IMG/VR virus record: IMGVR_UViG_3300037456_000001
Location: 1 to 20,452 of that record
Source: a virus
Strand: one strand, 5' to 3'
Length of the DNA: 20,452 nt
Positions 400 through 20,101 of the stretch are shown in pieces. A program made the position numbers and the translations under genes. Numbering within the stretch: the stretch's first letter is position 1; the number at the start of each line of letters is the position of its first letter. Under the pieces are notes generated by a model, which saw only the letters and a program-made list of their open reading frames with translations, was not told where the DNA came from and did no database searches.

Positions 400-708
400 T
401 CAAACGATTGGGGTTGTGTCCACGGTGGTGGGGAGTGGTGCCGGGTCGGGTGCGACGAGGGGGTGCGGGTCGGCCGTGATGACGGCGCCGCTGTCCACGT
501 GCTTGCCGGTGCCGGACGTGCCGACGTTGGACAGGGACGTGATCGAGGTCAGTACGGATGCGAGGGCTGCGGCTCCGGCGACGTTGAGGACGACGAGCCA
601 GTCAAGGTGTGTCAAGCCCACGGAACCGGTCGTCATGAGTGCGAGGACGGCCTGCGCGAAGGTTTTCACGGCACGGACGGCGGCGTCTTTCCAGAATGCG
701 GTGGTCAA
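400..708 (-). CDS. Holin, r1t-like family
   Basis: This 102-residue protein has two predicted membrane segments, about residues 13-32 and 37-56, joined by a short turn. Its N-terminus (FWKDAAVRAVKTFAQA) is typical of r1t-type holins, as is the segment AGAAALASVLTSI. After residue 60 it has a Pro/Thr-rich soluble tail. Holins assemble in the inner membrane and open it at a set time so that the lysin reaches the wall. The start is a TTG at 706-708 with AGGAG six bases upstream; that Shine-Dalgarno overlaps the stop codon of the lysin gene. It is the last gene of the late operon, directly before the bidirectional terminator. Family assignment comes from recognised sequence pattern and position beside the muramidase. 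Confidence 0.88.
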   Translation of the reverse strand: MTTAFWKDAAVRAVKTFAQAVLALMTTGSVGLTHLDWLVVLNVAGAAALASVLTSITSLSNVGTSGTGKHVDSGAVITADPHPLVAPDPAPLPTTVDTTPIV

Positions 709-717
709 GGGGTGCTC

Positions 718-1683
718 CTACTTGTTGATCTGGGCTTTGAACGCTTCGAGGGTCGCGGCGGGGAGTGTGGCGCGCAGTTGGTCGGCCAGCGCTGTCACCT
801 GCGCGTCGGTGAGTGCGGCGACGGAGGGTTTGGCGGCGTCCACAAGGTATTGGTGCATGTCGGCGGCGTCCCCACTGGCAGGGTTTTGGTATGCCCACAC
901 GGTGGCGGGGGTGGTGGCTGCGGCGTTGAGTACGGCTTGGTGCATGTCGCAGGGGTCGTTGCTGGCGCTGTTGCGGTATCCCCAGACGGCGCGGGCGACG
1001 GCTTGCAGGTCTGTGGTGGTGAGTGGCATGTCTGGCTCCTGAATGGGTGTGACGCTGCTGGCGTCGGTGGTGATGGTGGGTTTGGTGTAGGCGTCCCACG
1101 CCGCGCCGTTGCCGTAGAACTGGGACAGGTCGAGGTTGCCTCCCCACCCGGGGAGGCGCCCGGTGGATGTGAACTGCCACATCCCGCAGGACACCCACCA
1201 CTTCGGCGGTTGGAGACCGGCCGGCGGGTTGAAGCCGTTGATGACGGCGTCTCCGGCCACGTAGGCGGCAAGCCAGAGCATGTAACCGGCGCGGACGGCA
1301 GGTGACCAGTCATACTTGTTCAGGAGGTAGGCGGGGGCGTAGATGACGGGTTTCACACCGGTCCCGGCTTCAATGCGGCGTGCAGCCTCGAGGGTGGCCG
1401 CAACCATGTTTGGTGCGTCAGTTTCGGCGTCGATGATGATCATTGCCTGACCGACATAGCCGCGGATTTGGGAGACGAAATAGTCTGCTTCGGCGGGGTC
1501 GTTGCGGAAGTACTGGTACACGCCCACACGTTTGCCTGCACGCCGCGCCCCCTGGTACTGGGCATCCGCATGCGGGTTGTTCGTGAACGCGTCGCACACG
1601 CCCACAATGACGGCGTCGCACGGCACGGCGGCCAGGTTGATGCCCGCCTGATCCTTGCCTATGTCGATGACGTTGAGAGTCAT
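718..1683 (-). CDS. Endolysin: GH25 muramidase with C-terminal repeats
   Basis: This 321-residue lysin should cleave the MurNAc-GlcNAc bond of peptidoglycan. Residues 1-200 match the GH25 lysozyme pattern: a first-strand Asp (D7 in VIDIGKDQ), the acidic pair D85/E87 in IIIDAET, the strand MLWLAAY (135-141) and the terminal WQFTSTGRLPGW followed by LDLSQFYG. A linker (200-220) leads to two 24-residue repeats (232-255 and 261-284) and a short helical tail. No signal peptide is seen, so it relies on the adjacent holin. I chose ATG 1681-1683 because it gives an ATGA overlap with the previous gene and has GGAG seven bases upstream; the longer upstream extension lacks family similarity. The C-terminal part is probably the wall-binding or multimerisation domain, which is inference. 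Confidence 0.9.
   Translation of the reverse strand: MTLNVIDIGKDQAGINLAAVPCDAVIVGVCDAFTNNPHADAQYQGARRAGKRVGVYQYFRNDPAEADYFVSQIRGYVGQAMIIIDAETDAPNMVAATLEAARRIEAGTGVKPVIYAPAYLLNKYDWSPAVRAGYMLWLAAYVAGDAVINGFNPPAGLQPPKWWVSCGMWQFTSTGRLPGWGGNLDLSQFYGNGAAWDAYTKPTITTDASSVTPIQEPDMPLTTTDLQAVARAVWGYRNSASNDPCDMHQAVLNAAATTPATVWAYQNPASGDAADMHQYLVDAAKPSVAALTDAQVTALADQLRATLPAATLEAFKAQINK
832..990 (-). repeat. Two 24-residue repeats in the lysin C-terminus
   Basis: Bases 919-990 and 832-903 encode two copies of a motif with consensus VWxYxNxASxDxxDMHQxLxxAA, offset by 29 residues. Shared positions include Trp, Tyr, Asn, Ala-Ser, Asp, Asp-Met-His-Gln and a final Ala-Ala. The repeat is at protein level only; the DNA copies have diverged. 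Related VW-Y-N repeats are known in lysins of actinobacterial phages, where they follow the catalytic domain. Confidence 0.8.
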
Positions 1684-2000
1684 GGGGTCGACTCCGGGTT
1701 GATGTTGATCGTGGTCGTCTGTCCGGGCGGGCACGCGGCGATATGGTCGTCAAGTTTCTTGCCCTGCTGGTCTATGGCGTCACGCAGCGACTTGCCACTA
1801 TTGGGGTGTAGTTCGTGTTCGATGCTGTCGAGGCGTTGGAAGATGCCGGGGCGTGCGTCGAATCCGGGGCGGGCGTCCTCCCCGGTCATGTCGTCCACGA
1901 AATGGTTGATCTTACGGATGGCTGGGAGGCCCTTGCGCCAGAACCAGACGAGGACTGTCCCCGCGATGGGGGTGATGATTGAGAATGCGGTCCAGTCCAT
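1680..2000 (-). CDS. Small membrane-anchored protein of the lysis region (possible second holin)
   Basis: This 106-residue protein has one N-terminal hydrophobic segment (about residues 4-20, FSIITPIAGTVLVWFW), then a basic stretch and a long charged, helical cytoplasmic part. The segment RLDSIEHELHPNSGKSLRDA resembles one seen in small actinophage proteins encoded next to lysins. It lies directly upstream of the muramidase, whose ATG overlaps its TGA (ATGA), and four bases after the tail-fibre gene. The start ATG 1998-2000 has AGGG six bases upstream. Location and the single membrane segment suggest a lysis accessory role, such as a one-segment holin or a regulator of holin timing. It could equally be an unrelated membrane protein; its function is not shown by the sequence. 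Confidence 0.65.
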   Translation of the reverse strand: MDWTAFSIITPIAGTVLVWFWRKGLPAIRKINHFVDDMTGEDARPGFDARPGIFQRLDSIEHELHPNSGKSLRDAIDQQGKKLDDHIAACPPGQTTTININPESTP

Positions 2001-2003
2001 GGG

Positions 2004-2540
2004 TCACCCTGCCGCCGAGGCCGGGGTCATCTGGACCGCGATCCACTGGACGGGGATCGCATAGGTTGCGGCGACACCGGTTCCGTCAATGGTGCGCAGG
2101 TCCATGGTGAAACCTGTGGTCGTCTGCCCGTAGGCGTGCGCCTCCAGCTTGTAGCTGTTGTTCCCGGTGACGGCGTTGATGTTGACAGTGATGATCGGGG
2201 CCTGGGTGAATGCGGGGGCCGGGAACGTGACCGACGCCGTGCCTGCCGCGTTCCCGGCCGGGACTGACACGGTCACCGTTCCGGCATGGACCATGTACGG
2301 TGACGCGCCCTGAACCTGGGTGACCGGGACCCACGCCCCTGACAGGTAGCATTCGATTGCGCCTGTGTCTTGGCGGAGAACGACCATGCCGTTTACGGCG
2401 GTGAGTGCGTCGCGGGCCGCTTGGTTGGCGACGGGGATGATGACGTTCGCGCTGTTGCCCATGGTGGCGAGGTCGGCGGCCAAATTGTAGGCGTCGGAGT
2501 TGATTGGGGTGGTGACACCGTTGGCGAGGGTCTGGGGCAT
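2004..2540 (-). CDS. Minor tail/fibre protein with H-type-lectin-like C-terminus
   Basis: The product has 178 residues. The N-terminal 75 residues (NSDAYNLAADLATMG and the stretch RQDTGAIECYLSGAWVPV) look like the small head segments of phage fibre proteins. From about residue 87 to 172 the pattern is beta-rich, with FTQAPIITVNINAV, a YKLEAHAYGQTTTGFTM strand pair and a final IPVQWIAVQ. This is the layout of the H-type lectin fold, known for sugar binding in invertebrate lectins and some phage fibres. It probably contacts cell-surface sugars. The start ATG 2538-2540 has AAGGAG five bases upstream, overlapping the stop of the preceding fibre gene. Lectin assignment is by pattern only and should be tested by profile search. 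Confidence 0.68.
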   Translation of the reverse strand: MPQTLANGVTTPINSDAYNLAADLATMGNSANVIIPVANQAARDALTAVNGMVVLRQDTGAIECYLSGAWVPVTQVQGASPYMVHAGTVTVSVPAGNAAGTASVTFPAPAFTQAPIITVNINAVTGNNSYKLEAHAYGQTTTGFTMDLRTIDGTGVAATYAIPVQWIAVQMTPASAAG

Positions 2541-2549
2541 GGTGTCTCC

Positions 2550-3494
2550 TTAGCGGGACCAGTAGATGGTGAGTTTGCCGGATGCGGCGTCGACCAGGCG
2601 GCCGTTGTAGCCGGAGTAGTCGCCGCCGGAGATGGCGATGCCGCCGCCAGCCAAAAGTGCGGCACCCATGCTGGTGGGCAGGTCGAAGGTTCTTTGTCCT
2701 ACCCCGGCGGGGATGGTGACGGCGTAGCTTGATCCGGTGAGGGTGATGTCACCGGCGGGGCGTTTCGTAGAGTTGTGCGTGTAGAAGTAGATGGTTGCGG
2801 GCGCGTTGTAGGCGCCTCCCGGACGGCGTGCGCCGAGAGTGAACCGGATGCGGGTCACGGTGCGGCCCGCTAGTTGCTTGGGTGATCCTGCGTACCACCA
2901 TGCGCCGTGGACGGTTTCCCCGTACGTGCCGGTGTAGACGTTCCCGCCGCCGGTCGCGTACGTGTCCCACCCGTAGGTGGCCATGGTCGCGGAGTCGGTG
3001 GCCGGGTAGGTGTTGGATCCGGTTTGGGCTGGTGGTGGGGGCGGTGTGACTGGTGGTGGGGGTGGTGGTGGTGCGGCTGTCGCCCCGACTTTGCCCGTCA
3101 CGGTGGGGGCGGCTGCGTTCCATGCGAGGATGACAAGGTCGTTGACGGTGGGTGTGTAGGAGGACACGAACGTTGCCGTGTAGGCGACGTTGTCCGTCCC
3201 CGTGACCGTGATGGTGGGGGATGACACCGGGACGGTCGTTACGGTGCCCGTGGCGGGGCGTGGTGTGAGTGTCAGCCTGCCGGTGACGACAGCCTCGGAC
3301 TGGCCGGTGGCCCCGGTGACAAGGTCCACACTGACCGCATCCCCCACGGAGACCACAATGGGGTCACTGTAGGAGGCGGGGAGGTTGTTGCCGTTGACGT
3401 TCACGGCCAAGGCGCCGTTGTTGTCCAGCACCATGACGCCCTTGTAGCGGGCAAACGAACCAGCCGGGATAACAAGTTTTCGCAGGTTAGGCAC
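2550..3494 (-). CDS. Minor tail protein with poly-proline linker and C-terminal beta domain
   Basis: This 314-residue protein has three parts. Residues 1-138 are beta-rich (VTGRLTLTP, PTITVTGTDNVAYTATF). Residues 142-155 are an almost pure proline linker, PPPPPPPVTPPPPP. Residues 160-314 form a second beta domain with aromatic strands (GAWWYAGSPKQLAGR, TRIRFTLGARRPGG, ATIYFYTHN) and end in LTIYW. Similar C-terminal domains occur in actinophage tail fibres, which suggests a distal adsorption structure. The start is GTG 3492-3494, overlapping the end of the hub gene by 8 bases, with AAGG six bases upstream. A role in host binding is inferred from position between the hub and the lectin-like protein. 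The proline linker would work as a stiff spacer. Confidence 0.75.
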   Translation of the reverse strand: MPNLRKLVIPAGSFARYKGVMVLDNNGALAVNVNGNNLPASYSDPIVVSVGDAVSVDLVTGATGQSEAVVTGRLTLTPRPATGTVTTVPVSSPTITVTGTDNVAYTATFVSSYTPTVNDLVILAWNAAAPTVTGKVGATAAPPPPPPPVTPPPPPAQTGSNTYPATDSATMATYGWDTYATGGGNVYTGTYGETVHGAWWYAGSPKQLAGRTVTRIRFTLGARRPGGAYNAPATIYFYTHNSTKRPAGDITLTGSSYAVTIPAGVGQRTFDLPTSMGAALLAGGGIAISGGDYSGYNGRLVDAASGKLTIYWSR

Positions 3495-4707
3495 GGGTCA
3501 CCTTCCCGAAAGCTAGTTGGACATCCGCATATGAGCATTCGACGGTGAGCTTCATGGCCTGCACGGCTGTCCCGTTGGATTGCAAGGCCATGGTCTTCAC
3601 CATGCCCACCAGCGGGACGGCCTGCTGGTTGATGACGGGGGCGGCGACCGTGACCCAGTCCCCGACCTGCAACGCCGGATGGGGCAGGCAGGTCACTTTC
3701 AGGTCCGTGGTGAGTCCCCTGATCTGGGTGTCCCGCATCGTTGCCGCGTAGGCGTCGCACTCGGCCTGTGTGGTGAGCATCGTGGACTGGTAGAACGTTG
3801 GGTAGGTGCCGTGGGGTCCGCCCACTGCCATGGGTCCGGCGTCAATGCGGGCAATGCCGCGGATGGGGCTTTGTTGGTTGTTGACCGTCTGCGTGCCGTC
3901 AGCGACGAACACGTTGTACAGGCCGGTGAGGTCTTGTGCCCGGTCGACCTCGACCAGCACGCCCTCGGGTCCGCCCTGAATGGTCCAGACCGGTGTTTGT
4001 TTCGCGATTGGGTAGACCTCGAACTGTCCGTCGCCGTTCATGCGGTAATCGCAGGAGATGCGTTTGCACAAGTCTTGGACGGCGTTGAGTCGATCGTCCT
4101 GGTAGATGAGGGTTTTGTTGACGGCCCGGTCGGTGACGGTGCCGTAGGTGACGACGGGGACGATGCCGTCCAACAGTCGGGCGATCTCCCCCATGATGGT
4201 GGGGGATGTGCCCTGTGGACTGCCGGGGGCGAGGAGGCGGTTGTTCGCCGCTTCGACGGCCAAGTCTTGCCCGGTGACCTGCACGGTCGCCGCCGTGAGT
4301 TCCAGCACCAGGGCCTTGTTTTTGGGGATGGGGGTGCCGGGGTTGACCTGCCCCAGGTTGTCGATCACATAGGCCGTCCACCGTTCGGACGGGGTGTTTT
4401 GTGTGACCCGGTACCATCCCATGTTCACGGTCCCGGCGCCGCCGACCTGGTAGGTGACTTGTAGCCGTGTCCCACCGACGCCGAGGGGGTCCTCAAAAAG
4501 CCATGGGGAGAGTTTGCCGGTGGGGTCTGCGATGGTGAGGGACAGGTTTTGGAGTTGGCGGGTCCCGTCCCAGTCCATGCCCCATGAGCTGACCTTCAGG
4601 GGCGCGGGCCATGCAAGGTTGCCGCCGTACCATGCCCACACGGTGATCCGGTCGCCGGTGCGGGAGCCGTTGAGGGCGGCTAGGGTGTTCGCGTCAATGT
4701 CGCGCAC
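3487..4707 (-). CDS. Baseplate-hub/minor tail protein (gpD- or DUF5047-like)
   Basis: This 406-residue protein has the pattern of actinophage minor tail proteins that form the central hub below the tail tube. The N-terminal region has GDRITVWAWYGG and the segment LTIADPTGKLSPWLFEDPLG, seen in proteins annotated DUF5047. The middle has a helical part (EIARLLDGIVPVVTYG, DRLNAVQDLCKRISCDYRMN) and a GQFEVYPI strand; the last third has VGDWVTVAAP, as in hub domains that resemble gp27. It follows the distal tail candidate and a small structural protein and precedes the fibres, as expected for a hub. The start is GTG 4705-4707 after a purine-rich AAAGGGGG six bases upstream. Family membership is from recognised pattern and gene order; a structure prediction would settle it. 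Confidence 0.75.
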   Translation of the reverse strand: MRDIDANTLAALNGSRTGDRITVWAWYGGNLAWPAPLKVSSWGMDWDGTRQLQNLSLTIADPTGKLSPWLFEDPLGVGGTRLQVTYQVGGAGTVNMGWYRVTQNTPSERWTAYVIDNLGQVNPGTPIPKNKALVLELTAATVQVTGQDLAVEAANNRLLAPGSPQGTSPTIMGEIARLLDGIVPVVTYGTVTDRAVNKTLIYQDDRLNAVQDLCKRISCDYRMNGDGQFEVYPIAKQTPVWTIQGGPEGVLVEVDRAQDLTGLYNVFVADGTQTVNNQQSPIRGIARIDAGPMAVGGPHGTYPTFYQSTMLTTQAECDAYAATMRDTQIRGLTTDLKVTCLPHPALQVGDWVTVAAPVINQQAVPLVGMVKTMALQSNGTAVQAMKLTVECSYADVQLAFGKVTRA

Positions 4708-4719
4708 GGCGGCCCCCCT

Positions 4720-5052
4720 TTAGCTGTAACTGTTCGCGGTCCCGGTGAAGGATGGGTCAGTGCCGGTGAGTTGGCATACGGCCCGGTAGTAAGCCGCCTT
4801 GGCTTCAAAGCGTTGGACTATGACCGTGGGTGCCGTGATAGGTACGAACGTGTCCGCTGGGATCGCGTCCGCCCATACCCCGCCATCCATAGACCATTGG
4901 AGGCTGAACTGGGCGCACGCGCCGGCGCCGCTGACGGCCGTTACTTCCAAGACGACGCCAACCCAATCCGTGGTTGCCGGGGCTGGTGTCTTGATTGTTG
5001 CGATGGTTGTTTGGGTGATGGTTCCGGCGAATATTGCGTGTCCTGTAGGCAC
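4720..5052 (-). CDS. Small beta-rich tail protein, function unknown
   Basis: This 110-residue protein is almost wholly beta-strand in character, with LEVTAVSGAGACAQFSLQWS, SMDGGVWADAIPA and a final YYRAVCQLTGTDPSF. Small proteins of this kind sit among the minor tail genes of actinophages. It lies between the distal tail candidate and the hub gene with gaps of 21 and 12 bases, so it is probably part of the tail tip. The start is GTG 5050-5052, with GAAAGG six bases upstream. I do not recognise a named family; a tail-tip or baseplate component is the likely role from position only. Confidence 0.65.
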   Translation of the reverse strand: MPTGHAIFAGTITQTTIATIKTPAPATTDWVGVVLEVTAVSGAGACAQFSLQWSMDGGVWADAIPADTFVPITAPTVIVQRFEAKAAYYRAVCQLTGTDPSFTGTANSYS

Positions 5053-9202: not shown

Positions 9203-9834
9203 TCACCCTCCGTGCGTTTTAGTGTCTTCTTCGGGTGGTTTCAAGGCACGCCACAGGCGGGACTCCCCCGCCAACAAACCCTGTATCAGGTCGCGGAACT
9301 CACACCACGGCGGCTGCTCACGATGTAGGCGGATGCCGTACACGTCCGCGAAGTCAGCCACAATGGCCGTCCACTGGTTTAGGATTTGCTCCCACGTGAC
9401 CGGGTCACCGGTTTCTTCGTCTTCGCCGCGGTCGTACCATTCCCAGAGTCCGGTGCCGGCGTCGTAGCTGCCGCGCCCTGTGGGATCATTTGGGCCGTCT
9501 TGACGGCTTCGTACAGTGCCGCCACCGCCACTTTTGGGATGCCGTTTTCCCACACCTTCTCCGCGCCTTCACGGTCGGTTTGGAAGTCAGCCAAGGCGGT
9601 GAAGAACACCCGGTCGGTCGTGTCAGGTCCGACACCGTCCGCCCGCAACTGGTGCTGCACATCCCCAAGTAGGATGTCGTACACGTCCTGTAGGGATGCG
9701 GTGGTGTCTTCCTGGCGGAGGATCGCGTGGAGGCGTACCCCGTCCGACAAGGACACTTTGGGGAGTGTGTAGGTTTTGTCTTTAATGGGTAGGACGATGG
9801 GGCCGAGGACTTCCTCGAGGCTGCGGAATGCCAT
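9203..9834 (-). CDS. Tail assembly chaperone GT (made by -1 frameshift)
   Basis: The extended chaperone is expected from two overlapping frames: 9379-9834, then the -1 frame ending at 9203. Shifting after codon 101 would give about 210 residues. The second frame carries a well-formed T domain: TWEQILNQW, then ADFADVYGI and a final FRDLIQGLLAGESRLW, a pattern shared by actinophage chaperones. That frame has no good independent start. G/GT pairs bind the tape measure during tail assembly and are absent from the virion; this is established for lambda and widely conserved in siphoviruses. Position between tube protein and tape measure fits exactly. The frame relation is -1, and the canonical heptamer CCCAAAA lies in phase at 9532-9538. 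The exact slip point is inferred. Confidence 0.83.
9379..9834 (-). CDS. Tail assembly chaperone G
   Basis: The unshifted product is 151 residues. Residues 1-100 have the compact helical layout of G proteins: PIVLPIKDKTYTLPKVSLSD, then a helix with LQDVYDILLGDVQHQ and RVFFTALADFQTDREGAEKVW. The tail after residue 120 is a disordered Ala/Thr/Lys-rich stretch ending in TRSRGSKS. It lies between the major tail protein and the tape measure. The start is ATG 9832-9834; the upstream region offers only a weak GAAAG, so initiation may be modest. Most ribosomes should stop at 9379 and yield G, while a fraction shifts to yield GT. Confidence 0.85.
   Translation of the reverse strand: MAFRSLEEVLGPIVLPIKDKTYTLPKVSLSDGVRLHAILRQEDTTASLQDVYDILLGDVQHQLRADGVGPDTTDRVFFTALADFQTDREGAEKVWENGIPKVAVAALYEAVKTAQMIPQGAAATTPAPDSGNGTTAAKTKKPVTRSRGSKS
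9532..9538 (-). promoter_or_regulatory. Programmed -1 frameshift slippery heptamer CCCAAAA
   Basis: On the minus strand the heptamer reads C CCA AAA in the frame of G, which fits the canonical X XXY YYZ rule. After an eight-base spacer a 6-bp stem (9518-9523 with 9502-9507, one G-U pair) can form around a ten-base loop, the usual place of a stimulating structure. The next frame is -1 and carries the T domain. No other canonical heptamer in phase was found between here and the stop of G at 9379. Confidence 0.72.
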
Positions 9835-9932: not shown

Positions 9933-10640
9933 TTAGGCGCCACGGGTGTAGGCGAAGCTGGCAGAAGCCCCGGCCGCGTTCGTGACCACAATCGCGGCCG
10001 AACCAGCCGTACCGGCAGGCATGACAGCCTCAATCAACGAGTTCGACACCACATCCCACGACGTGGCGTTCGTGGCGCCGAACTTCACACCCGTGGTCGC
10101 CACAGTCCCGATGAAGTTCGTACCCTGGATACGGACCAGGCCGCCAACAGCAACACCGGACGGGGTAGCGGCAGACACCACAGGGACCGCGACCGAGTTC
10201 CACGGGTTCGTGATGAACGACAGGACACCGTCACCCTTGAACGTCGCCGTGACCTCTTCCAGGTCGGCGGTGCCGGTCTTGGACTGGTTCCACTCCACCA
10301 GCGCGTAACCACTCTTCGCCTCGGGGGCGCCGTTGCGGTCGTACCAGCGCACGTACAGGCGGGCTGCACTGCCGAACTGGAACTGGGCCTGACGGACCAA
10401 CTCCTGGCCGGGATCGAACAGGCCCGTGGTGGGGTTGACGGGGCGGTCGGCTTTGATGACGAGCTGCCACGCCGTCATGGTCTTTTCAAAGCTGTCGAAC
10501 CCGGCGTTGTCATAGTTCGCGGTCGACTGGTAGGTGGGGGATTCGGTGGGGGCGAAGTCGGTCATGGCGGAGAACGGGAGCCATGAAACATTGTCCGCGG
10601 ACACGTCGACCTTGAACCGGCGCGCAAGGGAATAGGACAT
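9933..10640 (-). CDS. Major tail (tube) protein with C-terminal IPT/TIG Ig-like domain
   Basis: This 235-residue protein forms the tail tube. Residues 1-148 match the tube fold seen in actinophages, with RRFKVDVSADNVSWLPF, TAWQLVIKADRP, ARLYVRWYDRNGAPEAKSGY and VTATFKGDG. Residues 152-235 are an Ig-like IPT/TIG domain: SAATPSGVAVGG, the strand VRIQGTNF, VKFGATNAT and a final IVVTNAAGASASF. Such domains often decorate the outside of phage tails and may bind cell-surface sugars weakly. The start ATG 10638-10640 has a full AGGAGG nine bases upstream, fitting high expression. The gene is flanked by an intrinsic terminator upstream and a strong hairpin downstream. It lies directly before the G/GT chaperones, as in most siphoviruses. 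Confidence 0.92.
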   Translation of the reverse strand: MSYSLARRFKVDVSADNVSWLPFSAMTDFAPTESPTYQSTANYDNAGFDSFEKTMTAWQLVIKADRPVNPTTGLFDPGQELVRQAQFQFGSAARLYVRWYDRNGAPEAKSGYALVEWNQSKTGTADLEEVTATFKGDGVLSFITNPWNSVAVPVVSAATPSGVAVGGLVRIQGTNFIGTVATTGVKFGATNATSWDVVSNSLIEAVMPAGTAGSAAIVVTNAAGASASFAYTRGA

Positions 10641-10738: not shown

Positions 10739-11163
10739 TTAGTCCCAGCCGTTGGCGGGGCGGTTCACCGTGGGAGGGTAGTCCATGTCAACGTACATGT
10801 GGTCGACGCGTTCCCACCGGTTCGCAGAATCCTCACCCATGGGCACGGATGAATTCCGCAAGCACTGGATGATGTGGGTGGATCCCATGGTGGTGTTGGT
10901 GAGGTTCTGCAATAGGTCAAAGACCGCATCCCCCAAGTCGTCCACGTCGAGACCTGCACCAGCATTTTTCCCATAGGCGACATCGTCATGTCCGTCAACG
11001 GCACGGCCGTCAGCACGATCACACGGTCAGGGCTGGCCGGCATGTTCTTGAAGATGACCGCCGTATCCGTGGCGGCGTAAACACCGGACGGGTTGAATAC
11101 CCCAATCCCGGTATCGGCGATCATCTGGGCTATGCCCGTCAACAGGTCTCGTGTCGCTGCCAT
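10739..11163 (-). CDS. Tail terminator protein, split over two frames
   Basis: The gene starts at ATG 11161-11163 and reads as a tail terminator (MAATRDLLTGIAQMIADTG, then SPDRVIVLTAVPLTD). After about codon 66 this frame becomes unrelated, Thr/Trp/Pro-rich sequence ending at 10765. The -1 frame supplies the missing C-terminal half: VDDLGDAVFDLLQNL, then RWERVDHMYV and the end NRPANGWD, stopping at TAA 10739. Joined at the GGGAAAA run (10966-10972), the product would be 141 residues, close to the family's usual size. The protein caps the tail tube and joins it to the neck. Causes could be programmed -1 shift, a deletion, or a miscalled A-run; the sequence alone cannot decide. The function call is firm, the intactness is not. 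Confidence 0.8.
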
Positions 11164-12313: not shown

Positions 12314-12586
12314 CTACATCCCGTATTTTTCGATCAAGTCAGTTTTCGTCAGCGCTTCCGCATCATCCGGCAAGCACCCGTTATGGACGGCCCATGAAAT
12401 CCACGCGACCTTCGCCGCATTCAAGGCGGGCCGGGATCGTGCCACTTCTTCGACAAAGTCGGTGCCGTCCTCATTCACCCGCTTCGCATACCCCTTGAGA
12501 AGCTGATGTTCAATGACCTCGTGGAGAGGGAGAGACATCCTAAAGATGCTCCCCCCCTCTCCACGGATGAACCAGGTTTCGGCCAC
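12314..12586 (-). CDS. Small head-region protein of unknown function
   Basis: The 90-residue product begins FIRGEGGSIFRMSLPLHE, then has a helical segment with KGYAKRVNEDGTDF and ends with TKTDLIEKYGM. Short proteins of this kind occur between decoration and adaptor genes in actinophages and may be head accessory proteins. The start is GTG 12584-12586, two bases from the TAA of the preceding gene, without a clear Shine-Dalgarno. Translation is therefore probably coupled to the gene before it. An internal ATG at codon 17, with GGAG ten bases upstream, is an alternative, but the residues before it fit the protein pattern. I cannot name a function. Confidence 0.68.
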   Translation of the reverse strand: MAETWFIRGEGGSIFRMSLPLHEVIEHQLLKGYAKRVNEDGTDFVEEVARSRPALNAAKVAWISWAVHNGCLPDDAEALTKTDLIEKYGM

Positions 12587-19612: not shown

Positions 19613-20101
19613 TTAGAGGAACCCTTCGTGTTGGAAGAGTCGTTCGAAGTCGCCGGGCGTGACGATGTCGGAGGGCTGGTCGACGAAGAGTTGAATACCG
19701 GCGGCGTGGTAGATGTCGTCGCTGATTTGGGAGCAGTTCACGTTCCGGCGGCGTCCCAACCATCGGGCGATGATGCCGGGGACGGGGATGTGGGTGATGC
19801 GTGCCAGGACGAGGGGGGCGTAGATGAGGTAGTTGTAGGGGAGTTTCAGGGAGGCGTTCCCGGCGGCGGTGATGGCCGCGCGTTGTTCACTGGTCAGTTG
19901 GAATCGTGACCATGTGATGTTGGTGTAGGCGGCGTTGGTCCGCTTCACAACACCGCTGCCCGGTTCGGCACTCACGCATTCCGTTTCGGATACGGCGACG
20001 ACCACATGGTGGGTGTGGGACCATGTCGCCCATTCGATGGCGCGGGCTATCCACGTGGTCCCGTACCGGCAGATGCCTATCTGCCCGGTCAGGTCAGTCA
20101 T
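19613..20101 (-). CDS. Permuted NlpC/P60-like (YiiX/LRAT-type) cysteine peptidase or hydrolase
   Basis: This 162-residue protein has the features of the circularly permuted NlpC/P60 fold: the His segment WSHTHHVVVAVSE (His 29, 31 and 32) near the N-terminus and the Cys segment NCSQISDDIYHAAG (C123) near the C-terminus. The order His before Cys is the permuted arrangement. E46 in AEPG may be the third catalytic residue. Members of this fold cut peptides or amides, often in cell walls or lipids. No signal peptide is seen. It lies before the terminase genes, far from the lysis cassette. The start ATG 20099-20101 overlaps the end of the micro-ORF by eight bases. Fold assignment is by motif; the substrate is unknown. 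Confidence 0.77.
   Translation of the reverse strand: MTDLTGQIGICRYGTTWIARAIEWATWSHTHHVVVAVSETECVSAEPGSGVVKRTNAAYTNITWSRFQLTSEQRAAITAAGNASLKLPYNYLIYAPLVLARITHIPVPGIIARWLGRRRNVNCSQISDDIYHAAGIQLFVDQPSDIVTPGDFERLFQHEGFL

Follow-up and report, generated by a model that had tools for sequence, protein, structure and literature searches.

Gene content and family of the split locus

The window (the whole stretch of DNA analysed, 20,452 bases of IMG/VR virus record IMGVR_UViG_3300037456_000001) carries its examined structural genes all on the minus strand. The tail terminator gene starts at an ATG at 11163-11161, from which frame 0 runs uninterrupted for 132 aa, its stop ending at 10765; the -1 frame reads through to a stop at 10739. 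A heptamer, G GGA AAA, lies at 10972-10966 in phase with frame 0, together with an A5 run at 10969-10965. The features on which the argument turns are as follows.

10951..11163, minus strand: N-terminal part of the tail terminator, codons 1-71 ending in LVQV; frame 0, aligning with 60 relatives through MLVQV
10739..10951, minus strand: C-terminal part of the tail terminator, beginning at LDVDDLG and running to the stop; -1 frame, placed by a tblastn frame switch and by PF12691
10950..10951, minus strand: junction from which 28 nt are absent (425 versus 453 nt), placed by codon-level comparison with the closest relatives
10966..10972, minus strand: GGGAAAA heptamer, encoding Gly-Lys of an MGK stretch; unconserved (0/60 relatives)
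9532..9538, minus strand: CCCAAAA, probable site of -1 frameshifting in the tail assembly chaperone genes; in phase and conserved

That a single tail terminator is spread over two frames, as an earlier note on this DNA had claimed, is borne out by the sequence and by profile scores. The joined halves reach 29.9 bits against PF12691 (Phage_tail_terminator_6), above its curated cut-off of 23.8 bits, and the C-terminal half by itself falls below it at 19.7 bits, which together point to a single gene divided between two frames; the frame-0 ORF on its own gives no match. Intact relatives L118, L007 and L016 score 33-45 bits against the same family, and another relative, L044, does not match it. Tail terminators form the capping ring of the tail tube; PF12691 covers those of actinophages, and PHROG 2595 bears the annotation 'head-tail connector protein'.

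Gene order and predicted structure agree with this family assignment. Like other PF12691 terminators, the gene has an HK97-gp10-like neck gene on one side and the gene of the major tail protein on the other. The model that AlphaFold gives for relative L118 (mean pLDDT 93.8) resembles solved tail terminators, lambda gpU among them, with modest similarity scores. In this model R73 closes a strand spanning residues 63-73, and G74 opens a loop leading to a helix at 81-93. The gene is a siphophage tail terminator of PF12691 type. Unlike its relatives, the window copy is without 28 nt that include this R-G loop and runs out of frame thereafter; judged on its sequence, it is a damaged member of the family, without a complete single open frame that includes the loop. 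The neighbouring major tail protein (9933-10640, minus strand) carries an IPT/TIG (Ig-like) domain at its C-terminus.

Position and size of the break

Three query proteins, the joined terminator and the major capsid and major tail proteins, were used to scan viral contigs in IMG/VR, yielding more than 130 loci that represent sixty distinct terminator genes, with the window's own excluded. In every one of the sixty the terminator reads as a single uninterrupted frame, free of internal stops. A DNA search of a phage collection with the terminator gene gave no match, and tblastn of that collection recovered distant Streptomyces and Micromonospora phages only. A near-identical record spanning the junction (gap of 0-30 nt) was found in neither viral nor genome contigs, a degenerate DNA pattern for the intact motif found no match, and scanning genome contigs with L118 returned two partial Streptomyces matches only.

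Protein alignment with these relatives places the break away from the heptamer. Where the window reads MGK-MLVQV, relatives read MGK-TLLQV, MGK-TLVQV or MGM-VLVQA, such that frame-0 homology continues past the heptamer for five codons (15 nt) and reaches 10951. It resumes, in the -1 frame, only at LDVDDLGDAVFDL, from LDVDDLG onward. A tblastn search with relative L106 locates the same switch, with residues 25-74 ending at 10951 and residues 84-148 beginning at 10951 in the other frame, nine residues being skipped. The homology frame change is thus at 10951 and not at the slippery site, and it was the alignment of relatives that shifted the break 15 nt from the heptamer.

The remark in the earlier note that typical family members have about nine more residues here was accurate: the stretch absent from the window comprises nine residues in 56 of the 60 relatives and eight in the other four, and always contains R-G or K-G. 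In an alignment of 28 sequences only five columns are invariant, and the R and G of this stretch occupy two of them. At the DNA level, the window terminator measures 425 nt and that of the closest relatives 453 nt (149 matched codons plus start and stop), so 28 nt are absent from the window gene. This figure comes from comparison with relatives that share only about 63-68% protein identity with the window terminator, and a parent whose loop was one codon shorter, corresponding to a 25-nt loss, retains some small probability on sequence grounds. The breakpoint itself is uncertain by a few bases on either side, or back to about 10961 if a repeat is involved. A deletion, the third of the explanations put forward earlier, is accordingly supported by comparison with the closest relatives.

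Slippery heptamers in the terminator and chaperone genes

The earlier note also raised a programmed -1 ribosomal frameshift at GGGAAAA, which would yield a 141-residue tail terminator from the two halves. Its description of the heptamer as in phase and of canonical type holds at 10972-10966, and both properties speak for programming, as do the open -1 frame as far as 10739 and the score of the joined product above the PF12691 cut-off. We nonetheless reject this explanation, and consider it very improbable, because homology in frame 0 continues after the heptamer: a product shifted there would lose both LVQV and the invariant R-G. Slippage at GGGAAAA, or a single additional A, makes the protein read GKNAGAGLDVDD, in which the strand LVQV becomes NAGAG and the R-G loop is still absent. 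Nor is the site shared, as neither a split frame nor GGGAAAA in any phase occurs in any of the 60 relative terminator genes. Four relatives that have the same Gly-Lys pair spell it GGT AAG, GGT AAA or GGG AAG, so the heptamer is just how the window spells Met-Gly-Lys. The alignment with terminators of related phages that had been suggested as a check, in which all are uninterrupted and GGGAAAA is unconserved, therefore argues against programming.

Stimulatory RNA structure downstream of -1 frameshift sites is frequent, and not obligatory. Around GGGAAAA none was detected by folding against shuffled sequence in a model that leaves pseudoknots out, with z-scores of -0.66, -0.27 and 0.23 for three downstream stretches and 0.70 for a stretch spanning the heptamer; that the RNA 3' of the heptamer folds no better than shuffles is a further point against programming. 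The window's genes contain 12 in-phase heptamers of the XXXYYYZ type in about 6,300 codon positions, which makes an in-phase GGGAAAA unremarkable.

The same window supplies an example of what a genuine programmed site looks like. The genes for the tail assembly chaperone (9834-9379 and 9553-9203, minus strand) contain an in-phase C CCA AAA at 9538-9532, beyond which the -1 frame stays open over a long distance. This heptamer is unchanged in 47 of 50 relatives; two others have CCCAAAC, and the last is cut off by a contig end. On this conservation it is the probable -1 frameshift site to be expected in the chaperone overlap, a known kind of feature. The terminator resembles the lambda G/GT-type chaperone arrangement in that an in-phase X XXY YYZ heptamer precedes an open -1 frame, but differs in that its heptamer is unconserved, its break falls 15 nt later and its relatives are unsplit. 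Conservation of the chaperone site among relatives thus weighs against a programmed shift in the terminator, which has no such thing; an in-phase slippery heptamer beside a frame break is, by itself, no evidence of recoding.

A sequencing error within the A5 run (10969-10965) had been proposed as well, whereby one A was missed in an otherwise intact gene. The five codons MLVQV that follow the run are homologous in frame 0, which contradicts such an error, and the nine-residue R-G segment would remain absent after correction. Homopolymers often suffer single-base errors, and an added A does restore an open frame; even so, we reject this reading and rate it the least probable of those weighed here.

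Origin of the missing 28 nucleotides

Almost certainly, the split is explained by a deletion of 28 nt, which arose either as a genuine, recent mutation or through faulty assembly and in which recoding plays no part. The 28 nt are missing between codon 71, at the end of LVQV, and LDVDDLG, which places the remainder of the gene in the -1 frame. Read as it stands, the record encodes a 132-residue product which, with its last 61 residues out of frame, is probably inactive. If ribosomes slipped by -1 at GGGAAAA or close to the junction and so made a working, shortened terminator despite a real deletion, this would be a rare translational rescue of a structural gene; nothing supports it, and we consider it very unlikely.

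Purifying constraint is similar in both halves of the gene (pN 0.20-0.33 versus pS 0.55-0.67 in the N-terminal half; pN 0.12-0.30 versus pS 0.57-0.81 in the C-terminal half), which marks the break as either recent or spurious. The coding strand showed no second split gene across the window genes for which relatives were available; those at about 700-5000 had few or none. In a large survey of frame transitions in prokaryotes, singleton breaks with intact homologues were attributed to sequencing errors or recent indels (PMC3711429). The terminator resembles such cases in being confined to one record, with intact homologues and an unconserved break site, and differs from them in that 28 nt rather than one base are lost.

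Within this reading, we lean slightly towards a real deletion in a defective prophage or phage variant, in which the gene would be dead. Loss of 28 nt would be unusual as a base-calling error, and deletion between short repeats could cause it, as relative L013 carries a repeat with exactly this spacing. Set against this is the essential role of the terminator in phage TP901-1, where a stop mutant without complementation gave a titre of 0 and polytails (PMC4493119). As loss of the terminator abolished infectivity there, a real deletion here would probably denote a defective phage. Moreover, with both halves constrained and no second split gene seen, any decay must have set in very recently.

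An assembly or consensus artefact that masks an intact phage gene is a serious, if somewhat less probable, alternative. The same observations, namely a lone break in an essential gene, constraint on both halves and the lack of other split genes, are what an artefact would produce; the record is one virus contig in a large collection, and the survey cited above ascribes singleton breaks of this kind to sequencing errors as well as to recent indels. Loss of 28 nt outside any long repeat is, however, atypical of errors in short-read assembly.

As to how the 28 nt may have been lost, the earlier note suggested the loss of one copy of a short direct repeat. Two copies of GGTGCA lie exactly 28 nt apart in L013, but the corresponding repeat amounts to 0-4 nt in the other 59 relatives, and deletion through a direct repeat is possible, though weakly supported. 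The companion proposal, that GCTGGTGCAGGTC codes usefully in both frames, we reject, since the frame-0 reading alone aligns with relatives generally and the second frame does not. GCTGGTGCAGGTC may instead be what is left of a deletion between repeats, given the paired GGTGCA of L013. The terminator break is of little biological importance.

Two further observations concern other parts of the window. Near the terminase genes, 19613-20101 (minus strand) encodes a small protein that matches PHROG 1128, of the host-takeover/auxiliary category, and that by eye has the look of a permuted papain-like (YiiX/NlpC-type) hydrolase. In the head region, a small gene at 12314-12586 (minus strand) bears an in-phase GGGGGGG near its start, at 12551-12557, which is probably incidental.
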